A stretch of 58,214 bases of DNA, from NCBI GenBank assembly GCA_031459715.1, contig JAVKIA010000016.1:1-58214 (forward strand), given 5' to 3'. A program made the position numbers and the translations under genes. The notes beneath the pieces were generated by a model. That model ran no database searches. It had not been told where the DNA came from and saw only the letters and a list, made by a program, of their open reading frames with translations. Positions 32,470 to 44,548 of the stretch are shown piece by piece (the stretch's first letter is position 1; each line of letters begins with the position of its first letter). This DNA comes from Armatimonadota bacterium. Its GTDB lineage: Bacteria > Sysuimicrobiota > Sysuimicrobiia > Sysuimicrobiales > Humicultoraceae.

Positions 32470-32796
32470 ATGGGACGAACCGTGGCCACAATGACGCAGG
32501 TGGTCGATCAGGAGGCGGCCAGCTTCAGCCGGTTCCGCCGCGCCCTGCGCAGGGAGGACCAGGAGGTCTTTGACCTCCTTTTTGCCGCGGCCCGGCACCA
32601 CGCCGCGCCCGCCGCCTACCAGTCGCATGCCTCCCCCTTCGAGGTGATCCTGCTGGCGATGCTGCTGGAGCTGGGGAAGGCGGTGGTGGGGCTGCAGCGC
32701 CGTCTGGCGGAGCTGGAGCAGGTGCCTATCCTCCCCGCTCCCTATGCCTCCGGGGCCGTGCCTGCTCCCCACCCCCCACGTGCTCGGGGGCCGTGA
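32470..32796 (+). CDS. small helical protein of the SOS polymerase cassette, unknown function
   Basis: 108-residue protein, mostly alpha-helical by composition, with FRRALRREDQEVFDLLFAAA and PFEVILLAMLLELGKAVVG (hydrophobic but amphipathic, probably not membrane) and a proline-rich C-terminus. No motif recognised. ATG at 32470 has GGGAGG 6 nt upstream; TTG at 32464 is an alternative. The gene is 42 bp after the RecA-fold gene and ends 10 bp before the chosen polymerase start, so all three look co-transcribed. It may be an accessory subunit of the polymerase. Confidence 0.75.
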   Translation: MGRTVATMTQVVDQEAASFSRFRRALRREDQEVFDLLFAAARHHAAPAAYQSHASPFEVILLAMLLELGKAVVGLQRRLAELEQVPILPAPYASGAVPAPHPPRARGP

Positions 32797-32806
32797 GGCG
32801 GGACCG

Positions 32807-35146
32807 GTGCGGGGCTGGCTCTTCGACCTCTACCCTGCCGCCGAGGGGATGGTCCTGTGGTTCCTCGACGCGGAGGGCCATCCCCACCGGCTGCTGGCGG
32901 AATACCATCCGGCCTTCTACGCCGCGGGTCCCCGGAGGGCACTGGACCGCCTGGGCCCTCTCCTGGAGGCGCGGGGTATCCCTGCGGACCTGACCCCGGT
33001 GGTCCGCCGGGAGCTTTTCAGCGGCGCCGAGCTCCCGGTGCTCCGTGTGGCGGTGCGTCGCCCGCTGCACTTCTCGGCGGCCGTGCGGCAGGCGGCCGCG
33101 CTGCGCCCCCTCACCCTCTACACCTGCGACCTCAGTCCCGCGCAGCTGTTTCTCTATGAGCGCGACTTCTTTCCCCTCGGCGAGTACGACCTGGTGGCGG
33201 AGGACGGCGTGCTGCGCGAGGCAATTCCGCGGTCCCGTCCGGAGGACCTGGAGTACACGCTTCCCCCGCTGGTGGTGATGCGGCTGCGCCTCGACGGCGA
33301 CCCGGTTAACCCCAATCACGGATGGCGCGGGGAGCTGGTGGTGGCGGTGGAGGGGGAGGAGGTGGTGCTGAGCGGAGAACGTCCGGAGGACGCCGTCCGC
33401 AGCCTCAACCGGATGCTCTCCCGCTATGACCCCGACGTCCTGCTCTCGGAGTGGGGCGACACCTTCCTGCTGCCGCGGCTGCTGCGGCTCAGCCGGCAGA
33501 CGGGGCAACCGCTGCTGCTCAACCGGGACCCGCACGCCAGGGTCGCCCGCCGCCGCGGACGGTCGTACCTCACCTACGGCAGGACCGTGTACGCCGCCGG
33601 CGCCCACCTCCTTCACGGGCGGTGGCACCTGGACCTGCGCAACTCCTTCATCTATAGCGAGTCGGAGATGGCCGGCCTGCTGGAGATCGCCCGTCTGGCC
33701 CGCCTGCCGGTACAGCGTCTGGCCCGCACCTCCACGGGCACAGCCATCTCCTCCATGCAGCTGGCCCGCGCCGTGCAGCAGCACATCCTGGTGCCCTGGC
33801 ACAAGAGCGAACCGGAGGCCTTCAAGACCGCAGCCGAGCTGCTGCTGGCGGACAAGGGGGGCCTCACCTACCAGCCGCTGGTCGGCGTCTACGAGGGTGT
33901 GGGGGAGCTGGACTTCTCCTCCATGTATCCCACGATCATGGCGCGGTTCAACATCTCGCCGGAGACCGTCAACTGCTCCTGCTGCCGGACGGGAGAGGTC
34001 GTCCCCGAGATCGGGCACACGGTCTGCCGGCGGCGCCGCGGTCTGGTGCCGCAGGTGCTGGACCACCTTCTGGAGCGGCGGGCGTACTACAAGCGGCGAA
34101 AGCGGGAGGCCAGTGGCGGCGAGCGGGCGATCTACGACCAGCGGCAGACGGCGCTGAAGTGGTGCCTGGTCACGTCATTCGGCTACCTGGGGTATCGCAA
34201 CGCCCGTTACGGGCGCATCGAAGCGCACGAGGCCACCACCGCCTACGCCCGCGAGATGCTGCTGCAGGCCAAGGAGGTGGCGGAGGCCCGGGGATTCCGC
34301 ATGCTGCACGCCATCGTGGATTCCATGTGGCTGCAGCGGCCGGGGGCGGGGCCGGCTGCGTACGAGACCCTGGCCCGGGAGATCCAGGCGGCCACGAAGC
34401 TACCGATCTTCGTGGAGGGGGTCTACCGCTGGATCGCCTTCCTTCCCTCCAAAACGCATCCCGGTGTGGGCGTCCCCAATCGCTATATGGGCGTCTTCAC
34501 CGACGGAAGCACGAAGGTGCGCGGCATTGAGGTGCGTCGCTCCGACGTCCCGCCGCTGGTGGAGGAGATGCAGGCGCGGATGCTGCAGGAGATGTTTGCC
34601 GCACCCACGGTGGCGGCCCTGCAGGAGAGGCTGCCGGAGATCCTGGCGGTGCTGGAGGGGGCGCTGCTGCGGGTGCGGGAGGGCCATATCCGTCCCTGGG
34701 ACCTGGCCCTCACCGCCACCATCTCCCGGAGGCCGGAGGCGTATCGCAGCAACCACCCGATCGCCCTGGCCGCGCGGATGCTGGCCCGAAGCGGGATTCA
34801 CCTCCATCCCGGCGAGGCGGTGCAGTACGTGGTCACAGACACAGACGCCAGGAACCCGGAAGACCGCGTCCGCCCCCTGACCCTGCTGGGGCCGGCGTGG
34901 TCCTACGATAGGGACTACTACGCCGAGCTTCTACTCCGCGCCGCCGGGACCGTCCTGGAGCCCTTCGGCTACTCGTGGCGCCGTCTGCGGGAATCCGTCA
35001 CTCCCGCGCCGTCAGGTCCGATTCGGCGTGGGGGGCCTCCGGCCCCACCAGGTGCGCCGCGGGGCCGTGCAGGCGCAGGCGCTGCGCCAGCATCATCTGC
35101 AGCTCCCGCGCGTTGCGGGCAGAGTTCCCGCGGAAGTGGTTGTTGA
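32807..35146 (+). CDS. family B DNA polymerase, PolB2-like, with altered motif C and degenerate exonuclease
   Basis: 779-residue family B polymerase. Motif A is GELDFSSMYPTIM (D369), motif B is ALKWCLVTSFGYLGYRNARYG with K451, and motif C is AIVDSMWL (D505), where the usual Asp-Thr-Asp has Ile-Val-Asp. The 3'-5' exonuclease looks decayed: no Asp-x-Glu at Exo I (MRLRLDGDP), a changed Exo II (DPDVLLSEWGDTF), and Glu instead of Asp in Exo III (YSESE). A Cys cluster (CSCC, later HTVC) lies after motif A. This resembles the PolB2/Dpo2 group rather than E. coli Pol II. GTG at 32807 has GAGG 8 nt upstream; ATG 32744 and GTG 32780 are alternatives. The last 50 residues overlap DUF72 antisense. Confidence 0.88.
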   Translation: MRGWLFDLYPAAEGMVLWFLDAEGHPHRLLAEYHPAFYAAGPRRALDRLGPLLEARGIPADLTPVVRRELFSGAELPVLRVAVRRPLHFSAAVRQAAALRPLTLYTCDLSPAQLFLYERDFFPLGEYDLVAEDGVLREAIPRSRPEDLEYTLPPLVVMRLRLDGDPVNPNHGWRGELVVAVEGEEVVLSGERPEDAVRSLNRMLSRYDPDVLLSEWGDTFLLPRLLRLSRQTGQPLLLNRDPHARVARRRGRSYLTYGRTVYAAGAHLLHGRWHLDLRNSFIYSESEMAGLLEIARLARLPVQRLARTSTGTAISSMQLARAVQQHILVPWHKSEPEAFKTAAELLLADKGGLTYQPLVGVYEGVGELDFSSMYPTIMARFNISPETVNCSCCRTGEVVPEIGHTVCRRRRGLVPQVLDHLLERRAYYKRRKREASGGERAIYDQRQTALKWCLVTSFGYLGYRNARYGRIEAHEATTAYAREMLLQAKEVAEARGFRMLHAIVDSMWLQRPGAGPAAYETLAREIQAATKLPIFVEGVYRWIAFLPSKTHPGVGVPNRYMGVFTDGSTKVRGIEVRRSDVPPLVEEMQARMLQEMFAAPTVAALQERLPEILAVLEGALLRVREGHIRPWDLALTATISRRPEAYRSNHPIALAARMLARSGIHLHPGEAVQYVVTDTDARNPEDRVRPLTLLGPAWSYDRDYYAELLLRAAGTVLEPFGYSWRRLRESVTPAPSGPIRRGGPPAPPGAPRGRAGAGAAPASSAAPARCGQSSRGSGC

Positions 35147-36020
35147 ACATCAGATAGAGCCGGCGCACGTCGCCGGCCAGCCGCTCTGCGGTCTCTACCC
35201 AGGGGCGCAGCTCATCGGAGGAGTACAGGTAGTCGTAGGCCCGGGCCGTGGAGACGCCATGCTCCGCCAGCGCCGGGTTGCGTCCGTGGAACCGGACCAG
35301 GCTCCAGTCAGTGGTCGTCTCCACCAGGGGGGCAGGGAGGTAGCGCACCGGCGCCAGGTCGGCGATGACGTGGGCGAAGCCATGCTCCCGCAGGTAGCCC
35401 AGCAGAGTGCGCCGGGCTTTGCCCTCCAGCCACTCCCGGTGCCGCACCTCGATGGCCACGGGCCAGTTCTCCAGATAAAGGGCCCAGGCATCCAGGTAGT
35501 GGAAGAGCTCCTGGGTGAAGCCCTGCCCCTTGGGGAACTGGAAGAGGACGTACCCCAGCCGCTCCCGCAGGCGCAGCGCGTCCACGAAGGCGGCGAAGTA
35601 GTCCCACACCGCTGTGAGGATCTCCTCGGGCAGGCGCATAGGGGAGAGGCTCTTCAGCACCTGCAGCGGTTTGGGCAGCAGCGGGAAGATCCCCCGGGGC
35701 AGGCGCGCCGGGTCGCTGTCGTGCCAGGTGAGCCAGGCGAAGGCTTTGACGTTGAAGACGAACGGGGGCGGGACGGTCTCCGCCCACTGCACCGCCCGCT
35801 CCGCCGGCTGCAGCGCGTGGTAAGAGGCGTCCACCTCTACGGTGGGGAAGACGCTGGCGTAGTAGCGCAGCCGGGCGCGGGGCCGGGTGCGCACCCCTTC
35901 GGGGTAGAACTCGCCCGCGAAGCCGGGGTCAGCCCAGGAGCAGGTCCCTGTATAGATTTCGCAACCGTGATAGACCAGGGGCGCCGCGGGAGCACCGGCG
36001 GCATCGGGAACTGGGCCCAT
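34998..36020 (-). CDS. DUF72 (YecE) family protein
   Basis: 340-residue TIM-barrel-like protein of unknown biochemical role. Family segments include IYTGTCSWADPGFAGEFYPEG, YYASVFPTVEVDASYHAL, FNVKAFAWLTWH, YVLFQFPKGQ, VAIEVRHREW, and the C-terminal LYLMFNNHFRGNSARNA. Length is above the 240-290 norm because of insertions around residues 105-125. It runs convergent to the polymerase gene and overlaps it by 149 bp. The ATG at 36020 lies 10 nt after a TACCAT -10-like hexamer on the minus strand. Confidence 0.92.
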   Translation of the reverse strand: MGPVPDAAGAPAAPLVYHGCEIYTGTCSWADPGFAGEFYPEGVRTRPRARLRYYASVFPTVEVDASYHALQPAERAVQWAETVPPPFVFNVKAFAWLTWHDSDPARLPRGIFPLLPKPLQVLKSLSPMRLPEEILTAVWDYFAAFVDALRLRERLGYVLFQFPKGQGFTQELFHYLDAWALYLENWPVAIEVRHREWLEGKARRTLLGYLREHGFAHVIADLAPVRYLPAPLVETTTDWSLVRFHGRNPALAEHGVSTARAYDYLYSSDELRPWVETAERLAGDVRRLYLMFNNHFRGNSARNARELQMMLAQRLRLHGPAAHLVGPEAPHAESDLTARE

Positions 36021-36125: not shown

Positions 36126-36170
36126 ATGCCGGAGTGGCTAGCGTCTTTTTTTGTGTTCTGCGGAGGATAG
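36126..36170 (+). CDS. possible 14-residue leader peptide upstream of secD
   Basis: ATG at 36126 directly follows GGAGGAAGG and reads MPEWLASFFVFCGG to a TAG at 36168-36170. The stop lies one base before the secD GTG, and the ORF contains the secD ribosome site, so the two would be translationally coupled. A run of seven T encodes part of the Phe pair. Too short to be a classical exit-tunnel arrest peptide; it could simply couple translation or be chance. Confidence 0.4.
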   Translation: MPEWLASFFVFCGG

Positions 36171-36171
36171 C

Positions 36172-37506
36172 GTGCTGCGTCTCTTCGGGCGGATCACAGT
36201 AGTGCTGCTGGTTCTGGTGGCGGTGCAGCTGGCGGCCGCGCCTGTTGGCCTGCGGGGCTGGCGGCCCTACCTGCAGCCGCCCCGCCTCCAGGTCAACCTC
36301 GGGCTGGACCTGCAGGGCGGCAGCCACATCGTGCTGGAGGCGCGCCAGACCCCGGAGGTGCCGGTGACTCGCGAGGCGGTCGACGCTGCCCTGGAAGTGA
36401 TCCGCCGCCGGATCGACCAGCTGGGCGTGGTAGAGCCCACGATCCAGCGCGAAGGGGAGCGGCGCATCATCGTGGAGCTGCCCGGCATCGAAGACCCCCA
36501 GCGGGCGCTGCGCGTCATCGGGCAAACGGCGCTGTTGGAGTTTGTGAATACGGGGGCCCGGTCACTGCCCGAGGGGGCCACCTGGAACGAGGCGGGGACT
36601 GAGGTAACCCTTCCCGGGCCGGAGAAGCGGACTATCCCTCTGAAGAAAGAGGTGGTGGTCACCGGGGCGGATCTAGCTGACGCCCGTGCCGCCTTCGAGC
36701 AGGGCCAGGTGAGAACCGGCGCACCCATCGTCACCTTTCAGTTCAAAGGGCCCGGGGCGAAGAAGTTCGAGGAGTTCACCGGCAGCCACATCGGGCAGTA
36801 CCTGACCATCGTCCTGGACAACCGGGTGATCTCCTCACCGGTGATCCAGAGCCGGATCACCGGCGGCTCGGGCCAGATCAGCGGCCGCTTCACCCTGGAG
36901 GAAGCCCGCGAGCTGGCGGTGCTGCTGCGCGCCGGCGCCCTGCCGGTTCCCGTGGAGGTCGTGGAGCGACGCACCATCGGGCCCTCCCTGGGGCGAGACT
37001 CGCTGGATCTGAGCCTGCGCGCCGGCGCCATCGCCGTGGTGCTGATCATCGCCTTCATGATCGCCCTCTACCGGCTTCCCGGCGTGCTGGCCAACGCGGC
37101 GCTAGTGCTGTACGCTCTCTTCCTCTTCGCCGCGCTGGCCACCCTGCGCGCAACCATGACCCTGCCCGGCATCGCCGCCTTCATCATCTCCGTGGGCATG
37201 GCCATCGACGCCAACGTGCTCATCTTCGAGCGGATCAAGGAGGAGCTGCGCGCCGGCAAAACCCTGCGCGCCGGCATCCAGACCGGGTGGGAGCGGGCCT
37301 GGAGCGCCATCCTCGACTCCAACGTGACCACCCTGGTGGGCGCGGCGGTCCTCTTCGTGCTGGGTACCGGGCCCATCAAGGGCTTCGCCACCACCCTGTT
37401 CATCGGGGTGCTGATCAGCATGTTCACCGCCATCGTCATCACCCGCATGCTGGTGGACGCAGCTGCCCGGCCCCCCCTGGACCGCTACCTCCGCTTCGGC
37501 CTGTGA
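36172..37506 (+). CDS. secD: protein translocase subunit SecD
   Basis: 444-residue inner-membrane protein that, with SecF, uses the proton gradient to pull exported proteins through SecYEG. It has one N-terminal helix (LFGRITVVLLVLVAVQLA), the P1 periplasmic domain (NLGLDLQGGSHIVLEA, RIDQLGVVEPTIQREGERRIIVELPGI within it) and five C-terminal helices with AFIISVGMAIDANVLIFERIKEE, the RND-family signature. GTG at 36172 with AGGA upstream was preferred over the in-frame TTG at 36151. yajC is not adjacent. Confidence 0.96.
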   Translation: MLRLFGRITVVLLVLVAVQLAAAPVGLRGWRPYLQPPRLQVNLGLDLQGGSHIVLEARQTPEVPVTREAVDAALEVIRRRIDQLGVVEPTIQREGERRIIVELPGIEDPQRALRVIGQTALLEFVNTGARSLPEGATWNEAGTEVTLPGPEKRTIPLKKEVVVTGADLADARAAFEQGQVRTGAPIVTFQFKGPGAKKFEEFTGSHIGQYLTIVLDNRVISSPVIQSRITGGSGQISGRFTLEEARELAVLLRAGALPVPVEVVERRTIGPSLGRDSLDLSLRAGAIAVVLIIAFMIALYRLPGVLANAALVLYALFLFAALATLRATMTLPGIAAFIISVGMAIDANVLIFERIKEELRAGKTLRAGIQTGWERAWSAILDSNVTTLVGAAVLFVLGTGPIKGFATTLFIGVLISMFTAIVITRMLVDAAARPPLDRYLRFGL

Positions 37507-37517
37507 GGAGGGACAGA

Positions 37518-38492
37518 GTGCGCGCCTGGGACATCATCGGCAACCGGCGCTGGGGCTACCTCCTCTCCCTGCTGGTCGTTCTCCCCGGGGCGCTGGCCCT
37601 GGCCACCTGGGGCATCAACTTCGGCATCGACTTCACCGGCGGCACCCTGCTCAACCTGCGCCTGGGAACAGACGCCTCCCTGGACCAGGTGCGGGCCACC
37701 CTGCGGCCGTTTGGCCATGAGGACGCCGTCATCCAGAAGTCCGCCGACCGGCCGCGGGAGGTGCTGGTGCGCACCAGGCCGCTGGACGAGGAGCAGACGG
37801 CCCGGCTGGAAGCCGCCTTCGCCCGGGAGTACGGCGGCGCAGAGGTGCTGCGCGCGGAGCGCGTGGGCCCCACCATCGGCCGGGAGCTGCGGCAGCGGGC
37901 CATCCAGGCGGTGGTCATCGGCCTCCTCCTGCAGGTGGTCTACATCACCATGCGCTTCCGTTCCCTGCGCTTCGCCCTGGCCGCGGACGTGGCCCTGGTG
38001 CACGACCTGCTGGTGGTGGTGGGCGTCTTCGCCCTCACCCGGCGGGAGGTCGATTCCTCATTCGTCGCCGTCCTCCTCACCGTGGTGGGCTATTCCATCA
38101 ACGACACGGTGGTGATCCTGGACCGCATCCGGGAGAACGTCAACCTGCGGCTGCGGGAGCCATTCGAGCGCCTGGTCAACCGCTCCATCCTGGAGGTCCT
38201 GGTGCGGTCGCTGACTACCGGGTTTGGGGCCATCGTGGCGCTGGTCCTCCTGTACTTCTTCGGCGGCCCGACACTGCGGGACTTCGTCTTCGGCCTGGGC
38301 CTGGGGGTGGTTACCGGCACCTACTCCTCCCTCTTCGTGGCCAGCCCGATCCTGGTGGAGTGGCAGCGGATAAGTGAGCGCCGGCAGCGCCGGCCTGCAG
38401 AGGTGGCGGAGAGTGCCGCCGTCCCCGAGCTGGCGGCGGTGGGCGAGAGCCCTCTTCCGGCGCGGCGGCGCCGCAGCCGGCGGCGGAGGTAG
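37518..38492 (+). CDS. secF: protein translocase subunit SecF
   Basis: 324-residue partner of SecD with six membrane helices. GINFGIDFTGGTLLNLRLG is the periplasmic loop signature; TVVGYSINDTVVILDRIRENV and the last helices with VVTGTYSSLFVASPILVEW are typical. GTG at 37518 has GAGGAGG 7 nt upstream, 11 bp after secD. The C-terminal tail is arginine-rich (RRRRSRRRR), probably a cytoplasmic ribosome- or lipid-contacting extension. Confidence 0.96.
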   Translation: MRAWDIIGNRRWGYLLSLLVVLPGALALATWGINFGIDFTGGTLLNLRLGTDASLDQVRATLRPFGHEDAVIQKSADRPREVLVRTRPLDEEQTARLEAAFAREYGGAEVLRAERVGPTIGRELRQRAIQAVVIGLLLQVVYITMRFRSLRFALAADVALVHDLLVVVGVFALTRREVDSSFVAVLLTVVGYSINDTVVILDRIRENVNLRLREPFERLVNRSILEVLVRSLTTGFGAIVALVLLYFFGGPTLRDFVFGLGLGVVTGTYSSLFVASPILVEWQRISERRQRRPAEVAESAAVPELAAVGESPLPARRRRSRRRR

Positions 38493-38807: not shown

Positions 38808-38832
38808 GGCGGGCAAAGGGAGCGCCGCCTCC

Positions 38833-41800
38833 TTGGTCCCTAGCGCGCTTTCCGCGACCCGCTGGATCCTGCGTCCGCCGGATCCGGAGCAGGCGGCCTC
38901 TCTCGCCCGCGCTCTCCACCTCAGCCTGCCAGCCGCCCAGCTCCTGCTGCACCGCCGCCTGACCGATCCGGCGGCGGCAGAACGGTTCCTCCGGGCCGAC
39001 CTGGCGGACCTGAGCGATCCGGCGGTACTGCTCGACCTGCCCCGGGCCGCCGGCCGTATTCTGCAGGCCGTCCGCCACGGCGAGCTCCTGACCGTCTACG
39101 GCGACTACGACGCGGACGGGGTGACCGCCACGGCGATCCTGGTACGCGGCCTGCGGACGCTGGGAGCGGAGGTGGCGTTCTTCATCCCCAGGCGGGAGGT
39201 CGAGGGCTACGGCCTCAGCGCGCAGGCGGTCGGCTGTCTGGAAGCCCCGGGGCTGCTGGTCACCGTAGACTGCGGTATCACCGCGGTGGAGGAGGTGAGG
39301 TACGCCGCCTCGCGGGGGTTCGAGGTGATTGTGCTCGACCACCACGAACCGGGAGAGCTGCTACCCCCGGCCTGGGCTGTGGTCGCACCCACCCGCCCCG
39401 GCCAGCCGCCGGTCACTCCCCTCGCCGCCTGCGGCCTGGCCTACCAGGTAGTGCGGGCTGTGTGGGAACAGGCGGGGATGCACCGGCTTCCGGAGGAGCT
39501 GGTGGACCTGGCAGCGGTGGGCACGCTGGCCGACGTGGTTCCGCTGGTGGGTGACAACCGCATTCTGGCCCGTCGGGGGCTGGAGCGCCTCTCCACCGCC
39601 CCCTCGGTGGGGCTGGGCGCGCTGCTTCGGGAGGCCGGCCTGTGTGGCCGGGTCAGGCCGCGGGACGTTACGTTCGCCCTGGCACCGCGGCTGAACGCCG
39701 CGGGGCGGATGGGCGACGCCCGCGCGGCAGTTACCCTGCTGTTAACCGACGATCCCGTGGAGGCCGCGGACCTGGCGCGGATGCTGGACCAGGAGAACCG
39801 CCGCCGCCAGGACCTGACCGACCAGGTCCTGGCTGAAGCCGCGGCCCAGGTGGAGGGGGAGGGGTGGGCCGACGCGCCTGCCCTGGTGGTGGCGGGGGAG
39901 GGGTGGCATCCTGGCGTCATCGGAATCGTAGCCTCGTACCTGGTGGAACGGTACAGCCGGCCGGCCGTGGTGATCGCGGTGCAGGGGGAGGTGGGCAGGG
40001 GATCGGCCCGGAGCATCGAGGCGCTGCCGCTGGTGAATGTCCTGGACGCGTGTGCCGGCCTGCTGCAGCGCTACGGGGGGCACGCCATGGCCGCGGGACT
40101 GACCATCGCCCCCGGTCAGATCGAGGCCTTCCGCGGTCGATTTCTCCAGGAGGCGGGCCGTCGGCTGCGGCCGGAGGACCTCGTCCCCGCCATCCAAATC
40201 GACGCCGAGCTGGCGCTGGGCGATCTGACGCTGGACCTGGCCAGGGAGCTGGAACGTCTGGCGCCATTTGGCCCGGGCAACCCGGAGCCGGTTTTTGCCG
40301 TGCGCGGGGTGCGGGCGGCGGCCACCCGGGTGGTGGGGGAGGGGCACCTGCGGCTGGGGCTCACCGACGGGCACAGCTTCATCGACGCCATCGGCTTTGC
40401 CCGGGGGGATGTGGCGGAGGTCCTGGCCTTCACCGGGGCCCGCCTCGACGTCGCCGGGAGCCTGCAGCTGGAGCGCTGGGACGACCAGGAGAAGGTCTCC
40501 CTGGTTCTGCGGGACCTGAGTGCTCCCGGGCTCGACCTGGATGCGGTGCTTGCCGACGGCCGGCTGCTGGTGGAGCGCCTCTTCGCCCGCGCCCCGGACT
40601 ACCTCGGTGGGGAGCTACGCGGCGTCGAGGAGGCAGTGTCCTTCCACACCAAGGTCGCCGGCGTGACCTTCGAGGGACGGCAGAGCGTCATCCCGCACGT
40701 GCGTCCGGGTCAGCGGCTGCGCCTGGTCCGTGAGCCGGCCAACCCGCACGACCCGCACGCCGTCGCCGTATGTACCGAGGATGGCCAGCACCTGGGTTAC
40801 CTGAGCGCCCGTCTGGCCGGGCGGCTCGCCCCCTCCATGGACGCGGGGACCCGCTACCAGGCTACCGCCTCGCAGGTCACCGGAGGCGGCGAGCGCTCGT
40901 ACGGCCTGAACATCTTCGTGCAGCGGGACGACGGGGAAGCGACGGTGGATCGGCTCCTGTGGATGGCCTGGCGGCAGCTTCCCCCCGCGGAACTTATCGA
41001 CCGCCTGCGCCTCTACCTCCACCCCGGACAATCTCTGCGCGAGGTGCAGATGCGGCTGCTCCTGGCAGCCCTGGAGGAAGCGGAGGTGACCACGACGCTG
41101 GGCCCCGGGCGGCGCGGCGCGGCCACCGCGGTGCTCGCCGCCGCAGCGCTGGCCGTGCGACGCGGGCGGCCGGCGGTCCTCGCCCTCCCCCTGGCCACCC
41201 TGGTGGACCGCTGGTACGAGGTCTATGCGCCGCTGCTGCGCGAGGCAGGATTTCGTCCCTACCGGGCCCACGGCGCCCTGCCCCTGCGGAGGCGGCAGAG
41301 CACTTTGCGGGCGCTGGAGGAGGGCAGGGCGGACATCCTCCTGGCCAGCGAGGAATGGCTGTGCCGGGGCGGCCTGCCGGAGCCGCCTCCGGCAGTAGTG
41401 GTCGTTAGCGGTGCCGGCTTGCCTTCCCGGGTTGGGTCATCGTGGGCAGGCACGCAGGTGCTGGTCCGCTTCGCCTGGGAGGGGTCGGGCCCAGGGGTAC
41501 CCGCCGCGGTGGACGAGAGGCACGTGCGGGCCAACCTGCGCTTGGTCGACCGGCGGGGGGCGGATCTGGAAGCGGTGATCGGGCGGCCGCCCGAGGGGGA
41601 GAAGACACTGGTCTTCCTGCCCGAAGCCGCTGAGGCGGTGGCGCTGGCCGACCGGCTACGCCAGAGGATGGGTCCTGCCGTGGCCTACTACCACGGCCGC
41701 CTCCCCGTCCGCGTGCGCCGCGTCCTGGAACAGCTTTTCCTGGACGGCGGGATCTCCCTCCTGGTGACCACAGCGGCGTTTCCGGAGCTCTTTGCCCCCG

Positions 41801-42324
41801 GCGACATCACCCGGGTGATCCTGGCCGGCCTCCCACGCAGCCGCGGAGAGCTGGTGGAGGTAGCCGCGCTGGCCGGACTGTCGGGGAGGGCCGCCTCGAC
41901 GGTCCTGGCCTACAGTCAGGAAGATGTCGTCCGCGCCCGCGCCCGCCTGGACGAGCAGTTTCCCCCGCGCGCCCGGCTGGCGGACCTCTACCGTCTGCTC
42001 CGGGACGCGCCCCAGGAGGCGCTGGTCTGGCCTGGGGAGGCCTTGGACCGCCTCCTCCAGCCATCTGGCTGGTCCCCCGTGGCCACGGAGGCGGCGCTGG
42101 AGATCCTGGCGGAGGTCGGGGTGATTCAGCGGGAGGAGGCCGATGGCCGATGGCGCCTGGAGCCGGTGGTGGCCGCCCGCCGGGAGCTGTCGGCCTCCGT
42201 CTGGTTCGCCGAGGGGATGCGCGAGCGGGCCGCCCTGGAGGCCATGCTGCCGTGGGCGTTCGGGCCCGCCTCCGCCATCCTGCAGACGCTGGCCGCGCCC
42301 GTCGCACGCGGCGCCCCGCCGTGA
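38833..42324 (+). CDS. recJ: RecJ single-strand exonuclease fused to HIRAN and degenerate helicase-like regions
   Basis: 1163 residues against about 550-800 for usual RecJ. Residues 1-590 are RecJ: YGDYDADGVTATAILVRGL, LDHHEPG (DHH at 169-171), GGHAMAAGLTI and the OB fold after LERLAPFGPGNPEPVF. Residues about 600-700 look like a HIRAN domain (TKVAGVTFEGRQ, REPANPHDPHAVAV, LGYLSARLA), known from HLTF-type fork remodellers. Residues 720-1010 have the layout of a superfamily 2 helicase, but the P-loop position reads GPGRRGAAT and no DExH box is seen, so it is probably inactive; a winged-helix-like end follows. TTG start. Confidence 0.9.
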   Translation: MVPSALSATRWILRPPDPEQAASLARALHLSLPAAQLLLHRRLTDPAAAERFLRADLADLSDPAVLLDLPRAAGRILQAVRHGELLTVYGDYDADGVTATAILVRGLRTLGAEVAFFIPRREVEGYGLSAQAVGCLEAPGLLVTVDCGITAVEEVRYAASRGFEVIVLDHHEPGELLPPAWAVVAPTRPGQPPVTPLAACGLAYQVVRAVWEQAGMHRLPEELVDLAAVGTLADVVPLVGDNRILARRGLERLSTAPSVGLGALLREAGLCGRVRPRDVTFALAPRLNAAGRMGDARAAVTLLLTDDPVEAADLARMLDQENRRRQDLTDQVLAEAAAQVEGEGWADAPALVVAGEGWHPGVIGIVASYLVERYSRPAVVIAVQGEVGRGSARSIEALPLVNVLDACAGLLQRYGGHAMAAGLTIAPGQIEAFRGRFLQEAGRRLRPEDLVPAIQIDAELALGDLTLDLARELERLAPFGPGNPEPVFAVRGVRAAATRVVGEGHLRLGLTDGHSFIDAIGFARGDVAEVLAFTGARLDVAGSLQLERWDDQEKVSLVLRDLSAPGLDLDAVLADGRLLVERLFARAPDYLGGELRGVEEAVSFHTKVAGVTFEGRQSVIPHVRPGQRLRLVREPANPHDPHAVAVCTEDGQHLGYLSARLAGRLAPSMDAGTRYQATASQVTGGGERSYGLNIFVQRDDGEATVDRLLWMAWRQLPPAELIDRLRLYLHPGQSLREVQMRLLLAALEEAEVTTTLGPGRRGAATAVLAAAALAVRRGRPAVLALPLATLVDRWYEVYAPLLREAGFRPYRAHGALPLRRRQSTLRALEEGRADILLASEEWLCRGGLPEPPPAVVVVSGAGLPSRVGSSWAGTQVLVRFAWEGSGPGVPAAVDERHVRANLRLVDRRGADLEAVIGRPPEGEKTLVFLPEAAEAVALADRLRQRMGPAVAYYHGRLPVRVRRVLEQLFLDGGISLLVTTAAFPELFAPGDITRVILAGLPRSRGELVEVAALAGLSGRAASTVLAYSQEDVVRARARLDEQFPPRARLADLYRLLRDAPQEALVWPGEALDRLLQPSGWSPVATEAALEILAEVGVIQREEADGRWRLEPVVAARRELSASVWFAEGMRERAALEAMLPWAFGPASAILQTLAAPVARGAPP

Positions 42325-42330: not shown

Positions 42331-42343
42331 AAAGTGCAAAGAG

Positions 42344-44548
42344 ATGAAGTGGCTGGAGCAGCGCCGCCAGCACGTCTTCCAGGACCTGCCGAAGGAGGCG
42401 CAGGACCTGATAGCCAGGGTGCGCGCGCACTTCACCCGGGCAGATCTGGACATCCTGCGCGAGGCCTACCTCTTCGCCGAAGCGGCCCACAGCGGGCAGG
42501 TCCGCGCCTCCGGCGAGCCATACGTCCACCACTCCCTGGCCGTCGCCACCATCCTGGCCGAACTGCGCCTTGACCCCGTGACCATCGCCGCCGCCCTGCT
42601 GCACGACGTCGCCGAGGACACGGGCGTGACCCTGGCGCAGGTGGAGGAGCGTTTCGGCGGCGAGATCGCCGCCCTGGTGGACGGCGTGACCAAGCTGGGC
42701 CGCATCGAGTGGCAGAGTCGGGAGGAGCGGCAGGCGGAGAGCCTGCGCAAGATGTTCCTGGCTATGGCCAACGACATCCGTATCGTCCTCATAAAACTGG
42801 CCGACCGGCTGCACAACATGCGCACCCTGCAGTACCTCCCGGAGTGGAAGCGCAAGCGCACCGCCCAGGAGACCCTGGACATTTACGCGCCGCTGGCGGA
42901 GCGGCTGGGCATCGGCCAGATCACGGCGCAGCTGCAGGACCTGGCCTTCCGCGAACTGCACCCTCAGGCCTATGACGAGATCGCTACCCAGCTGGCCCAG
43001 GCGGCGGCCACCAGCCACCTGGACCGGGTCATCGACGTGCTGCACCGGGAGCTGAACCGGGCCGGGATCAAGGTGGAGCGCTACAACATCAGCGCCCGGC
43101 CCAAGCACATCTACAGCATCTGGCAGAAGATGCAACGGCCCAAGTACGCCGGGGCGTCGGTGGCTCGCATCTACGATCGGCTAGGGGTGCGCATCGTCGT
43201 GGACACCGTGCAGGAGTGCTACGCCGCCCTGGGAGTGGTGCACGCCCTGTGGCGGCCCATCCCCGGGGAGTTCGACGACTACATCGCCAATCCCAAGACT
43301 ACCGGCTACCAATCCCTGCACACCGCCGTCATCTATGAGGGGGAGCCGCTGGAGATCCAGATCCGCACCCACCAGATGCACCACGAGGCGGAGTACGGCA
43401 TCGCCGCCCACTGGCGGTACAAGGAGGGCCGGCCGGAGGAGCGGGAGTTCGCCCGCAAGCTCTCCTGGCTGCGCCAGCTCCTGGAATGGCACCAGGAGGT
43501 GCAGGACGCGCGGGCCTTTGTCCAGTCCGTCAGGCTGGACCTCTTCCAGAACGAGGTCTTCGTCTTCACGCCCAAGGGCGACGTCGTCGACCTGCCCGCC
43601 GGAGCCACCCCCATCGACTTCGCCTACCGCATCCACACCGAGGTGGGGCACCGCGCCAGCGGCGCCCGGGTGAACGGCCGGCTGGTCCCGCTTTCGCACC
43701 GCCTGCACACGGGAGACATCGTCGAAATCATCACCAGCAGGACCAGCGCCGGCCCCAGCCGCGATTGGCTCACCTTCGTTGTTACCAGCAACGCCAAGGC
43801 CAAGATCAAGCAGTGGTTCAAGCGCGAGCGCCGTGAGGAGAACATCGAGCGCGGCCGGGAGCTGCTGGAGCGGGAGCTGCGCCGCAGCGGCGGCGCGGCT
43901 GCGGCGGCACTGGCCAAGGGGGAACGGCTGCGGGAGGTGGTGCGCCGGTTCGGACTGCCCGGCGAGGAGGAGCTGCTGGCTGCCGTGGGCAACGGCGACC
44001 TGTCGTTGCTGCAGGTGGTGCAGGCGCTGCGGGGCGAGGAGGCGGCGGGCGAAGGGGCGGCTCCAGCGGAGGCGGCGGTCCCCGCGGCACTGCGGCCGCG
44101 GAGGGGCGTGCGTGTCCGCGGCGTGGACAATGCCCTGCTGCGCTTCTCCCGCTGCTGCACCCCCCTGCCCGGCGACCGCATCGTCGGCTACGTAACGCGG
44201 GGCCGGGGGGTGGCCGTGCACCGGGAAGATTGTCCCAACATGGCCTTCCTGCGGCAACACCCGGAGCGGCTGCTGGACGTGGAGTGGGAGGCGCTGCAGG
44301 ACGGTTGCTACCCCGTGGAGGTGGAAGTGGAAGCCTTCGACCGGGTGGGGCTGCTCAAGGACATCCTGGCGGCCATCGCCGAATCCCGCACCAACGTGGT
44401 CTCGGTGAACGCCCGCGTGCGCAAGGACAGGGTGGCGGTGGTGAACCTGGTGCTGGACGTGGGCAACGTGGAGCAGCTGCGCGGCGTGCTGCAGCGGGTG
44501 GGGCAGGTCGCCGATGTCTTCAACGTCGAGCGGGTCCTCCCGGGCTAG
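42344..44548 (+). CDS. rel: bifunctional (p)ppGpp synthetase/hydrolase Rel
   Basis: 734-residue stringent-response enzyme. The hydrolase HD domain is intact (H62-H63 in VHHSLAVA, H87-D88 in LLHDVAEDTG). The synthetase domain shows RPKHIYSIWQKMQR, YDRLGVRIVV, NPKTTGYQSLHTAV and EIQIRTHQMHHEAEYGIAAHW. TGS (FTPKGDVVDLPAGATPIDFAY), a CCTPLPGD zinc-finger-like segment and a C-terminal ACT domain follow. ATG at 42344 gives the family start; the frame is open further upstream inside recJ. Tandem recJ-rel is common in Bacillota. Confidence 0.96.
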   Translation: MKWLEQRRQHVFQDLPKEAQDLIARVRAHFTRADLDILREAYLFAEAAHSGQVRASGEPYVHHSLAVATILAELRLDPVTIAAALLHDVAEDTGVTLAQVEERFGGEIAALVDGVTKLGRIEWQSREERQAESLRKMFLAMANDIRIVLIKLADRLHNMRTLQYLPEWKRKRTAQETLDIYAPLAERLGIGQITAQLQDLAFRELHPQAYDEIATQLAQAAATSHLDRVIDVLHRELNRAGIKVERYNISARPKHIYSIWQKMQRPKYAGASVARIYDRLGVRIVVDTVQECYAALGVVHALWRPIPGEFDDYIANPKTTGYQSLHTAVIYEGEPLEIQIRTHQMHHEAEYGIAAHWRYKEGRPEEREFARKLSWLRQLLEWHQEVQDARAFVQSVRLDLFQNEVFVFTPKGDVVDLPAGATPIDFAYRIHTEVGHRASGARVNGRLVPLSHRLHTGDIVEIITSRTSAGPSRDWLTFVVTSNAKAKIKQWFKRERREENIERGRELLERELRRSGGAAAAALAKGERLREVVRRFGLPGEEELLAAVGNGDLSLLQVVQALRGEEAAGEGAAPAEAAVPAALRPRRGVRVRGVDNALLRFSRCCTPLPGDRIVGYVTRGRGVAVHREDCPNMAFLRQHPERLLDVEWEALQDGCYPVEVEVEAFDRVGLLKDILAAIAESRTNVVSVNARVRKDRVAVVNLVLDVGNVEQLRGVLQRVGQVADVFNVERVLPG

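Follow-up and report, generated by a model that had tools for sequence, protein, structure and literature searches.

A recJ gene in a Sysuimicrobiota genome encodes a single chain in which a RecJ nuclease core is joined to a HIRAN domain and to a RecQ-like helicase module whose motor motifs are gone. The gene lies in a 58,214-nucleotide stretch of DNA (contig JAVKIA010000016.1 of NCBI GenBank assembly GCA_031459715.1), the whole of which is referred to here as the window. In every Sysuimicrobiota sequence examined, alignments show a helicase motor that is dead by its motifs, together with RecJ active-site residues and a HIRAN signature that are kept. Taken as a whole, the evidence is best explained by a three-part fusion origin, loss of the motor in Sysuimicrobiota and use of HIRAN and the dead module as a passive dock, a reading that we consider probable rather than assured.

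Domain architecture and motif loss

The nuclease core (residues 33-561) scores 488.9 bits with the family model TIGR00644 (E 1.4e-146; cut-off 396.9), which places it in the RecJ family. It contains DHH (87-231), DHHA1 (350-436) and RecJ_OB (456-561) subdomains and the catalytic motifs GDYDADG, VDCG, DHH, TLAD, GSARS and GGH. The key residues D91, D93, D146, D169-H170-H171, D234, S391/R393 and G415-G416-H417 are invariant among its relatives, and the protein is predicted to be a 5'-3' single-strand nuclease.

An initial annotation, made from the letters of the window alone, had read a RecJ core followed by HIRAN and had staked this on a HIRAN match between residues 600 and 700; PF08797 indeed matches residues 604-681 (E 2.6e-15, 56.5 bits against a gathering cut-off of 24.7). 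All 19 relatives scanned match the same model (E up to 10 allowed, best 8.8e-18). The window HIRAN loop REPANPHDPHAV aligns with the HLTF loop RDPNNPYDKNAI (RDPNNPYD-type), an NxxD loop that borders the DNA pocket in HLTF. The HIRAN of HLTF is reported to hold single-stranded DNA in a pocket with Y72 and Y93 at its border, and recognition of single-stranded DNA 3' ends by HIRAN has been suggested (PMC4666394). By analogy, the window HIRAN is expected to hold DNA 3' ends.

The remainder of the chain is a RecQ/WRN-like two-lobed superfamily 2 (SF2) module that ends in a winged helix. Helicase_C matches residues 920-1004 above the Pfam cut-off (E 2.8e-7); the first RecA-like lobe is sub-threshold in Pfam and becomes visible with a profile of 19 relatives. 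Across both lobes, this profile matches human RECQ4 (5lst, E 7.4e-21) and bacterial RecQs (4tmu, 1.3e-20; 1oyw, 1.7e-17), with GPGRG landing on the P-loop. AlphaFold2 modelled the C-terminal 598 residues (22 sequences) with a predicted local distance difference test (pLDDT) score of 86.9 and a predicted template modelling (pTM) score of 0.88, and the full-length protein with 86.9 and 0.76, respectively. In VIA-align comparisons of the module model, WRN came top (Z 24.6, root mean square deviation (rmsd) 4.9, 341 residues), followed by several RecQs at Z 20-23. Because DEAD-box proteins also reach Z 20-23, the fold identifies SF2 in general, and sequence narrows it to RecQ-like. Both profile and model place the two RecA-like lobes in RecQ order, and the winged-helix-like end that had been proposed is present in the model as three helices (1046-1058, 1069-1078 and 1082-1095) and two strands (1098-1103 and 1106-1111). 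The module nevertheless falls below the RecQ family (TIGR00614, 23.7 bits versus a cut-off of 219.8), and no RecQ-type zinc-binding cysteine cluster was found, there being zero cysteines in residues 1026-1163.

The SF2-like order with a broken P-loop, also part of the initial annotation, is confirmed by alignment: motif I reads GPGRR, with no lysine, and VSGAGL and EVAALAGLSG occupy the positions of DExx and motif VI. The window protein has no recognizable ATPase site and, by these motifs, is a predicted pseudohelicase.

This state is shared across the phylum. The HIRAN-helicase module is near full length in 41 of 43 Sysuimicrobiota genomes (E 2.1e-118 or better; the 43 genomes of the class are the same 43 as for the whole phylum), and as many have a RecJ match. 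The two module-less genomes, G006 (69% complete) and G039 (72%), are missing the RecJ match too. With 41 genomes carrying the module, its fusion to RecJ is not a chance event. We counted motifs in a C-terminal alignment of 39 sequences from the 41 module genomes, leaving out G027 (cut by a contig end) and G036 (core and module in different frames). The separate open frames of core and module in the latter (L165, G036:C209) reflect a frameshift or an assembly error. The motif I lysine, the DE of motif II, the TAT of motif III and the first arginine of motif VI are each absent from every sequence (0/39); the second arginine of motif VI occurs in three of 39, and no motif VI is intact. In the HIRAN NxxD loop, asparagine is present in 37 and aspartate in all 39.

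For 11 close pairs, we estimated the ratio of non-synonymous to synonymous substitution rates (dN/dS) by a simple counting method, with dS reaching 1.3 for the most distant pair. The RecJ core gave values of 0.12-0.22 and HIRAN 0.04-0.22; lobe 1 lay at 0.18-0.37, lobe 2 at 0.09-0.34 and the tail at 0.10-0.34. HIRAN is thus the most constrained part of the extension. In none of the 11 pairs does the ratio come near 1, which shows purifying selection on the dead lobes; they are not free junk.

Intact and decayed relatives

In 199 Bacillota genomes, the RecJ matches listed lie in open frames of about 570 to 1270 amino acids. For comparison, we picked 60 Bacillota sequences by length, two by RecQ match and 20 for their tails. 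Eighteen of these RecJs carry HIRAN, with both its asparagine and its aspartate, and a complete set of helicase motifs: the motif I lysine, DE, TAT and both motif VI arginines are present in 18/18, in the forms GTGRGKS, DE[S/A/C]H, TAT and QxxGRxGR. Pfam models for DEAD, Helicase_C and HIRAN all exceeded their cut-offs in the five intact fusions scanned.

The initial annotation had called for a survey of this architecture, and the fusion does extend beyond the window. With a full-length profile and a limit of E 1e-250, 30 of 398 Bacillota genomes gave matches: 29 RecJ fusions and a stand-alone module in G200. All motifs are present in 27 of the 29 (the 18 above and nine more); of the other two, one is truncated where its contig ends and the other is degraded. 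Five of 149 Actinomycetota genomes also match, with motifs kept in all five, one of which reads GTSRGKS. No fusion was found in 149 Acidobacteriota genomes, a sample without an internal positive control.

With TIGR00614, the intact fused helicases score 141-210 bits, below the RecQ cut-off. Overall, 72 of the 199 Bacillota genomes have a RecQ over that cut-off. We considered the fused helicase as a stand-in for stand-alone RecQ, but several of the 18 intact-fusion genomes have a RecQ over the cut-off as well (for example, G089, G167, G206, G211 and G236), and the idea is not supported. Sub-cut-off RecQ-like matches in frames of about 1060-1085 amino acids, distinct from these RecJ genes, occur in G200, G147, G135, G183 and G170 and are possibly another RecQ fusion.

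The stand-alone HIRAN-helicase of G200 is a 657-amino-acid open frame with all motifs intact (L232 4816-6786; L242). Its contig is listed as viral in IMG/VR (100% identical), and G200 also carries a decayed RecJ fusion (L116). Among phages and plasmids, a RecJ-less module was found in one IMG/VR contig only, the same element as in G200; other plasmid and phage matches are partial (<80% query coverage) and mostly annotated as RecQ or unannotated.

We built a tree of the module (54 rows, careful method) with nine RecQs as the outgroup, motif columns excluded and four degraded Bacillota rows dropped. The fused modules form one clade (100/100), inside which the Sysuimicrobiota form another (100/100) on a long stem of 1.16 changes per column. 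In a RecJ-core tree (92 rows, quick method), Sysuimicrobiota are again one clade (99), and their sister is the intact fusion L131 (Shimodaira–Hasegawa-like approximate likelihood ratio test, 92). Because the RecQ outgroup and nearly all other long fusions are intact, the dead state is derived whether the Sysuimicrobiota are nested within the intact forms or lie beside them. These comparisons indicate that the window pseudohelicase is the descendant of a single-chain resection enzyme of the RecQ-RecJ type.

From the other Bacillota RecJs the motor has gone, mostly together with HIRAN, and many are shorter, degraded versions. Three (L113, L116 and L126) retain traces of DEAD or Helicase_C without HIRAN, and L121 keeps a HIRAN match without a helicase match. 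Weak matches to both the helicase models and PF10141 (ssDNA-exonuc_C) occur in L126, L143 and L147. PF10141 is carried by the RecJ of Bacillus subtilis and Lactococcus lactis; in Pfam, it has no match in the window protein or in the 19 relatives scanned, so its link to the window is visible only by profile-profile and fold comparison. We compared a profile of 24 of 25 PF10141-type tails (one was dropped for length) with 17 intact modules using hhalign, and obtained a probability of 99.3% (E 1.8e-20); against the Sysuimicrobiota profile it was 97.9%. Split in two, the PF10141-type tail matches lobe 2 alone with its N-terminal half (93.6%) and the module's winged helix and tail alone with its C-terminal half (99.2%); reversed and column-shuffled controls stayed below 1%. 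Superposed on Staphylococcus aureus RecJ (8y30), the full-length window model aligns over 727 of 756 residues, up to model residue 1157 (Z 52.5); given the overall rmsd of 19.3, the C-terminal domain is differently placed.

The PF10141 tail of Bacilli RecJ therefore appears, from profiles and models, to be what remains of the second lobe and winged helix of the module. In S. aureus and other Bacilli, this tail matches those parts of the intact fusions, whereas HIRAN and the first lobe are absent and the second lobe is strongly reduced. Tails of this type, resembling lobe-2 and winged-helix relics, are found in the Bacilli RecJs L110, L111, L148, L186, L187 and L192-L211.

Proposed role and rival explanations

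RecQ and RecJ act as separate partners that jointly start resection. In Escherichia coli, RecJ alone is reported to handle 5'-overhangs, and RecQ to be needed at blunt or 3'-overhang ends (PMC4846377). In the intact fusions, the motor would unwind from the 3' strand and free the 5' strand for RecJ while HIRAN holds the 3' end, and one chain would unite the three activities needed for the start of resection. The Sysuimicrobiota would have lost the motor and retained the nuclease and HIRAN; HIRAN and the dead two-lobed module may form a passive dock that places RecJ at a DNA end or junction, and other helicases would do the unwinding. The proposal in the initial annotation of a self-contained fork or end-processing machine does not suit the window copy, which has no recognizable ATPase site, but suits its motif-intact relatives in Bacillota and Actinomycetota well.

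Several points weigh against this account. A tree with all intact modules constrained to one clade is not rejected by an approximately unbiased test (p 0.394), and the Sysuimicrobiota may branch either from among the intact forms or next to them. Evolution is faster in the module than in the RecJ core. Positions conserved across intact and dead forms alike fall mainly in HIRAN, with few in the lobes and tail; the lobes may therefore have a role in protein contacts or stability. Binding of 3' ends is known for the HIRAN of HLTF and not for that of any bacterial RecJ, and we infer both DNA binding by the dead module and its action at forks or ends. In favour of the account, no AddA scored over the Gram-positive model cut-off in the 43 Sysuimicrobiota genomes, although RecB, AdnAB and UvrD-type helicases were not searched. 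A canonical RecQ exceeds the family cut-off in only one of the 43 and, given both counts, RecJ may be the main 5' nuclease of the phylum. That RecQ (G033:C17:25725-26768, 325 bits) lies in an 1800-amino-acid open frame. Weaker AddA-like matches (110-226 bits) in long open frames of G035, G036, G019, G015 and G014 may represent a divergent AddA/RecB-type enzyme in part of the phylum.

In the main rival explanation, the dead module is a platform for proteins (SSB, RecO, the clamp or another helicase) rather than a DNA dock. The scarcity of lobe residues common to intact and dead forms, together with purifying selection on the dead lobes, speaks for such a platform. A parallel is the C-terminal domain of Deinococcus RecJ, which is unrelated and is reported to contact HerA and to be needed in vivo (PMC4663267, PMC4846377). 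The strong constraint on HIRAN and its near-invariant HLTF-like asparagine and aspartate point instead to nucleic acid, and we regard the platform as a serious but rather unlikely alternative to the dock. A functionless, slowly decaying relic would be in keeping with the degraded versions in many Bacillota RecJs, the long stem branch and the faster evolution of the module; retention near full length in almost all of the phylum, the low dN/dS in every pair and the confident fold make this improbable. An unusual site at which the module would still hydrolyse ATP is hardly credible: most members keep a glycine-rich GPGR in the P-loop region, and the motif II Asp position holds Asp or Glu in 37 of 39, but the motif I lysine, the DE pair and the first motif VI arginine are missing from all.

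A broader hypothesis can be offered tentatively, as a possibility that we favour less than the dock itself. There may be a lineage of one-chain resection enzymes, consisting of RecJ, a HIRAN 3'-end clamp and a RecQ-like motor, of which the intact form would resect blunt and 3'-overhang ends alone. The motor would have been lost independently in several lineages, giving a RecC/AddB-like passive DNA reader or dock in Sysuimicrobiota and the PF10141 tail in Bacilli, a fossil helicase in the RecJ of B. subtilis and S. aureus.

We found no open-access paper that joins HIRAN with RecJ or DHH or names such a RecJ fusion; domain databases such as InterPro, or subscription papers, may show the architecture. 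A natural chain with a RecQ-like motor and RecJ would make their coupling directly testable, and the fusion would add a third activity, 3'-end capture, that is not known in the RecQ-RecJ pathway. The Sysuimicrobiota copies amount to a natural motor-dead mutant retained throughout a phylum that seems to be without RecQ and canonical AddA. The relation to PF10141, if correct, offers a first account of a function-unknown domain that the RecJ of well-studied bacteria carries.

Genomic context and comparison with known systems

In this Sysuimicrobiota bacterium, the window gene is the ordinary housekeeping recJ and has a single copy: it is the only RecJ match in its own genome, and Pfam matches give the gene order secD-secF-lapA-recJ-relA (Table 1). 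Further upstream, an 800-amino-acid protein (32744-35146, + strand) matches family B DNA polymerases (PF00136, E 4.5e-33), beside a DUF72 gene (34998-36020, - strand).

Table 1. Features of the recJ locus, in window coordinates
Feature	Position	Strand	Basis
secD and secF, upstream, housekeeping context	36151..38492	+	Pfam SecD/SecF matches
Ribosome-binding-site-like AAAGGGAG ahead of TTG start	38815..38822	+	Read from sequence
recJ-HIRAN-pseudohelicase gene	38833..42324	+	TTG start, 1163 aa plus stop; full-length relatives exist
RecJ nuclease core, residues 33-561	38929..40515	+	TIGR00644, Pfam DHH/DHHA1/RecJ_OB
HIRAN domain, residues 604-681	40642..40875	+	PF08797 E 2.6e-15; HLTF alignment
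Degenerate first RecA-like lobe, ~residues 715-895	40975..41517	+	RecQ/RECQ4 profile match, AlphaFold2, VIA-align
Dead motif I (P-loop) GPGRRGA; intact relatives GTGRGKS	41101..41121	+	Alignment
Dead motif II VSGAGL; intact relatives VVDE[AS]H	41404..41421	+	Alignment
Degenerate second RecA-like lobe, ~residues 896-1040	41518..41952	+	Helicase_C E 2.8e-7, profile, fold
Dead motif VI EVAALAGLSG; intact relatives QQSGRAGRDG	41857..41886	+	Alignment
Winged-helix-like domain and conserved tail (RRELxxSxxxxEG), ~residues 1041-1150, part common to PF10141	41953..42282	+	Profile-profile comparison, AlphaFold2, fold
relA/spoT-type gene, immediately downstream	42338..44548	+	Pfam RelA_SpoT, HD_4, TGS, ACT

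Among known systems, the window protein shares its core and catalytic motifs with the RecJ structures of Thermus thermophilus, Deinococcus radiodurans and S. aureus (5f55 versus the window model: Z 54.4, 527 residues, rmsd 2.5) and differs from them by about 600 additional residues, which form HIRAN and the two-lobed SF2 pseudohelicase. The two-lobed cores of RecQ, WRN and BLM are the nearest solved folds and sequences to this module, which differs in having no zinc site, a score below the family cut-off and dead motifs. HLTF and Rad5, which combine HIRAN with SNF2 and RING domains, have the aligned HIRAN loop in common with the window protein, but HIRAN here shares a chain with RecJ and a RecQ-like module, and Pfam finds neither SNF2 nor RING in the window protein, which sets it apart from the HLTF/Rad5 type. 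RecC and AddB, which serve as the functional precedent for the proposed dock, retain inactivated helicase folds for DNA handling in a resection enzyme, and likewise place a dead helicase fold beside a nuclease; they differ from the window protein in their SF1 fold, in the nuclease that they accompany and in being separate subunits.

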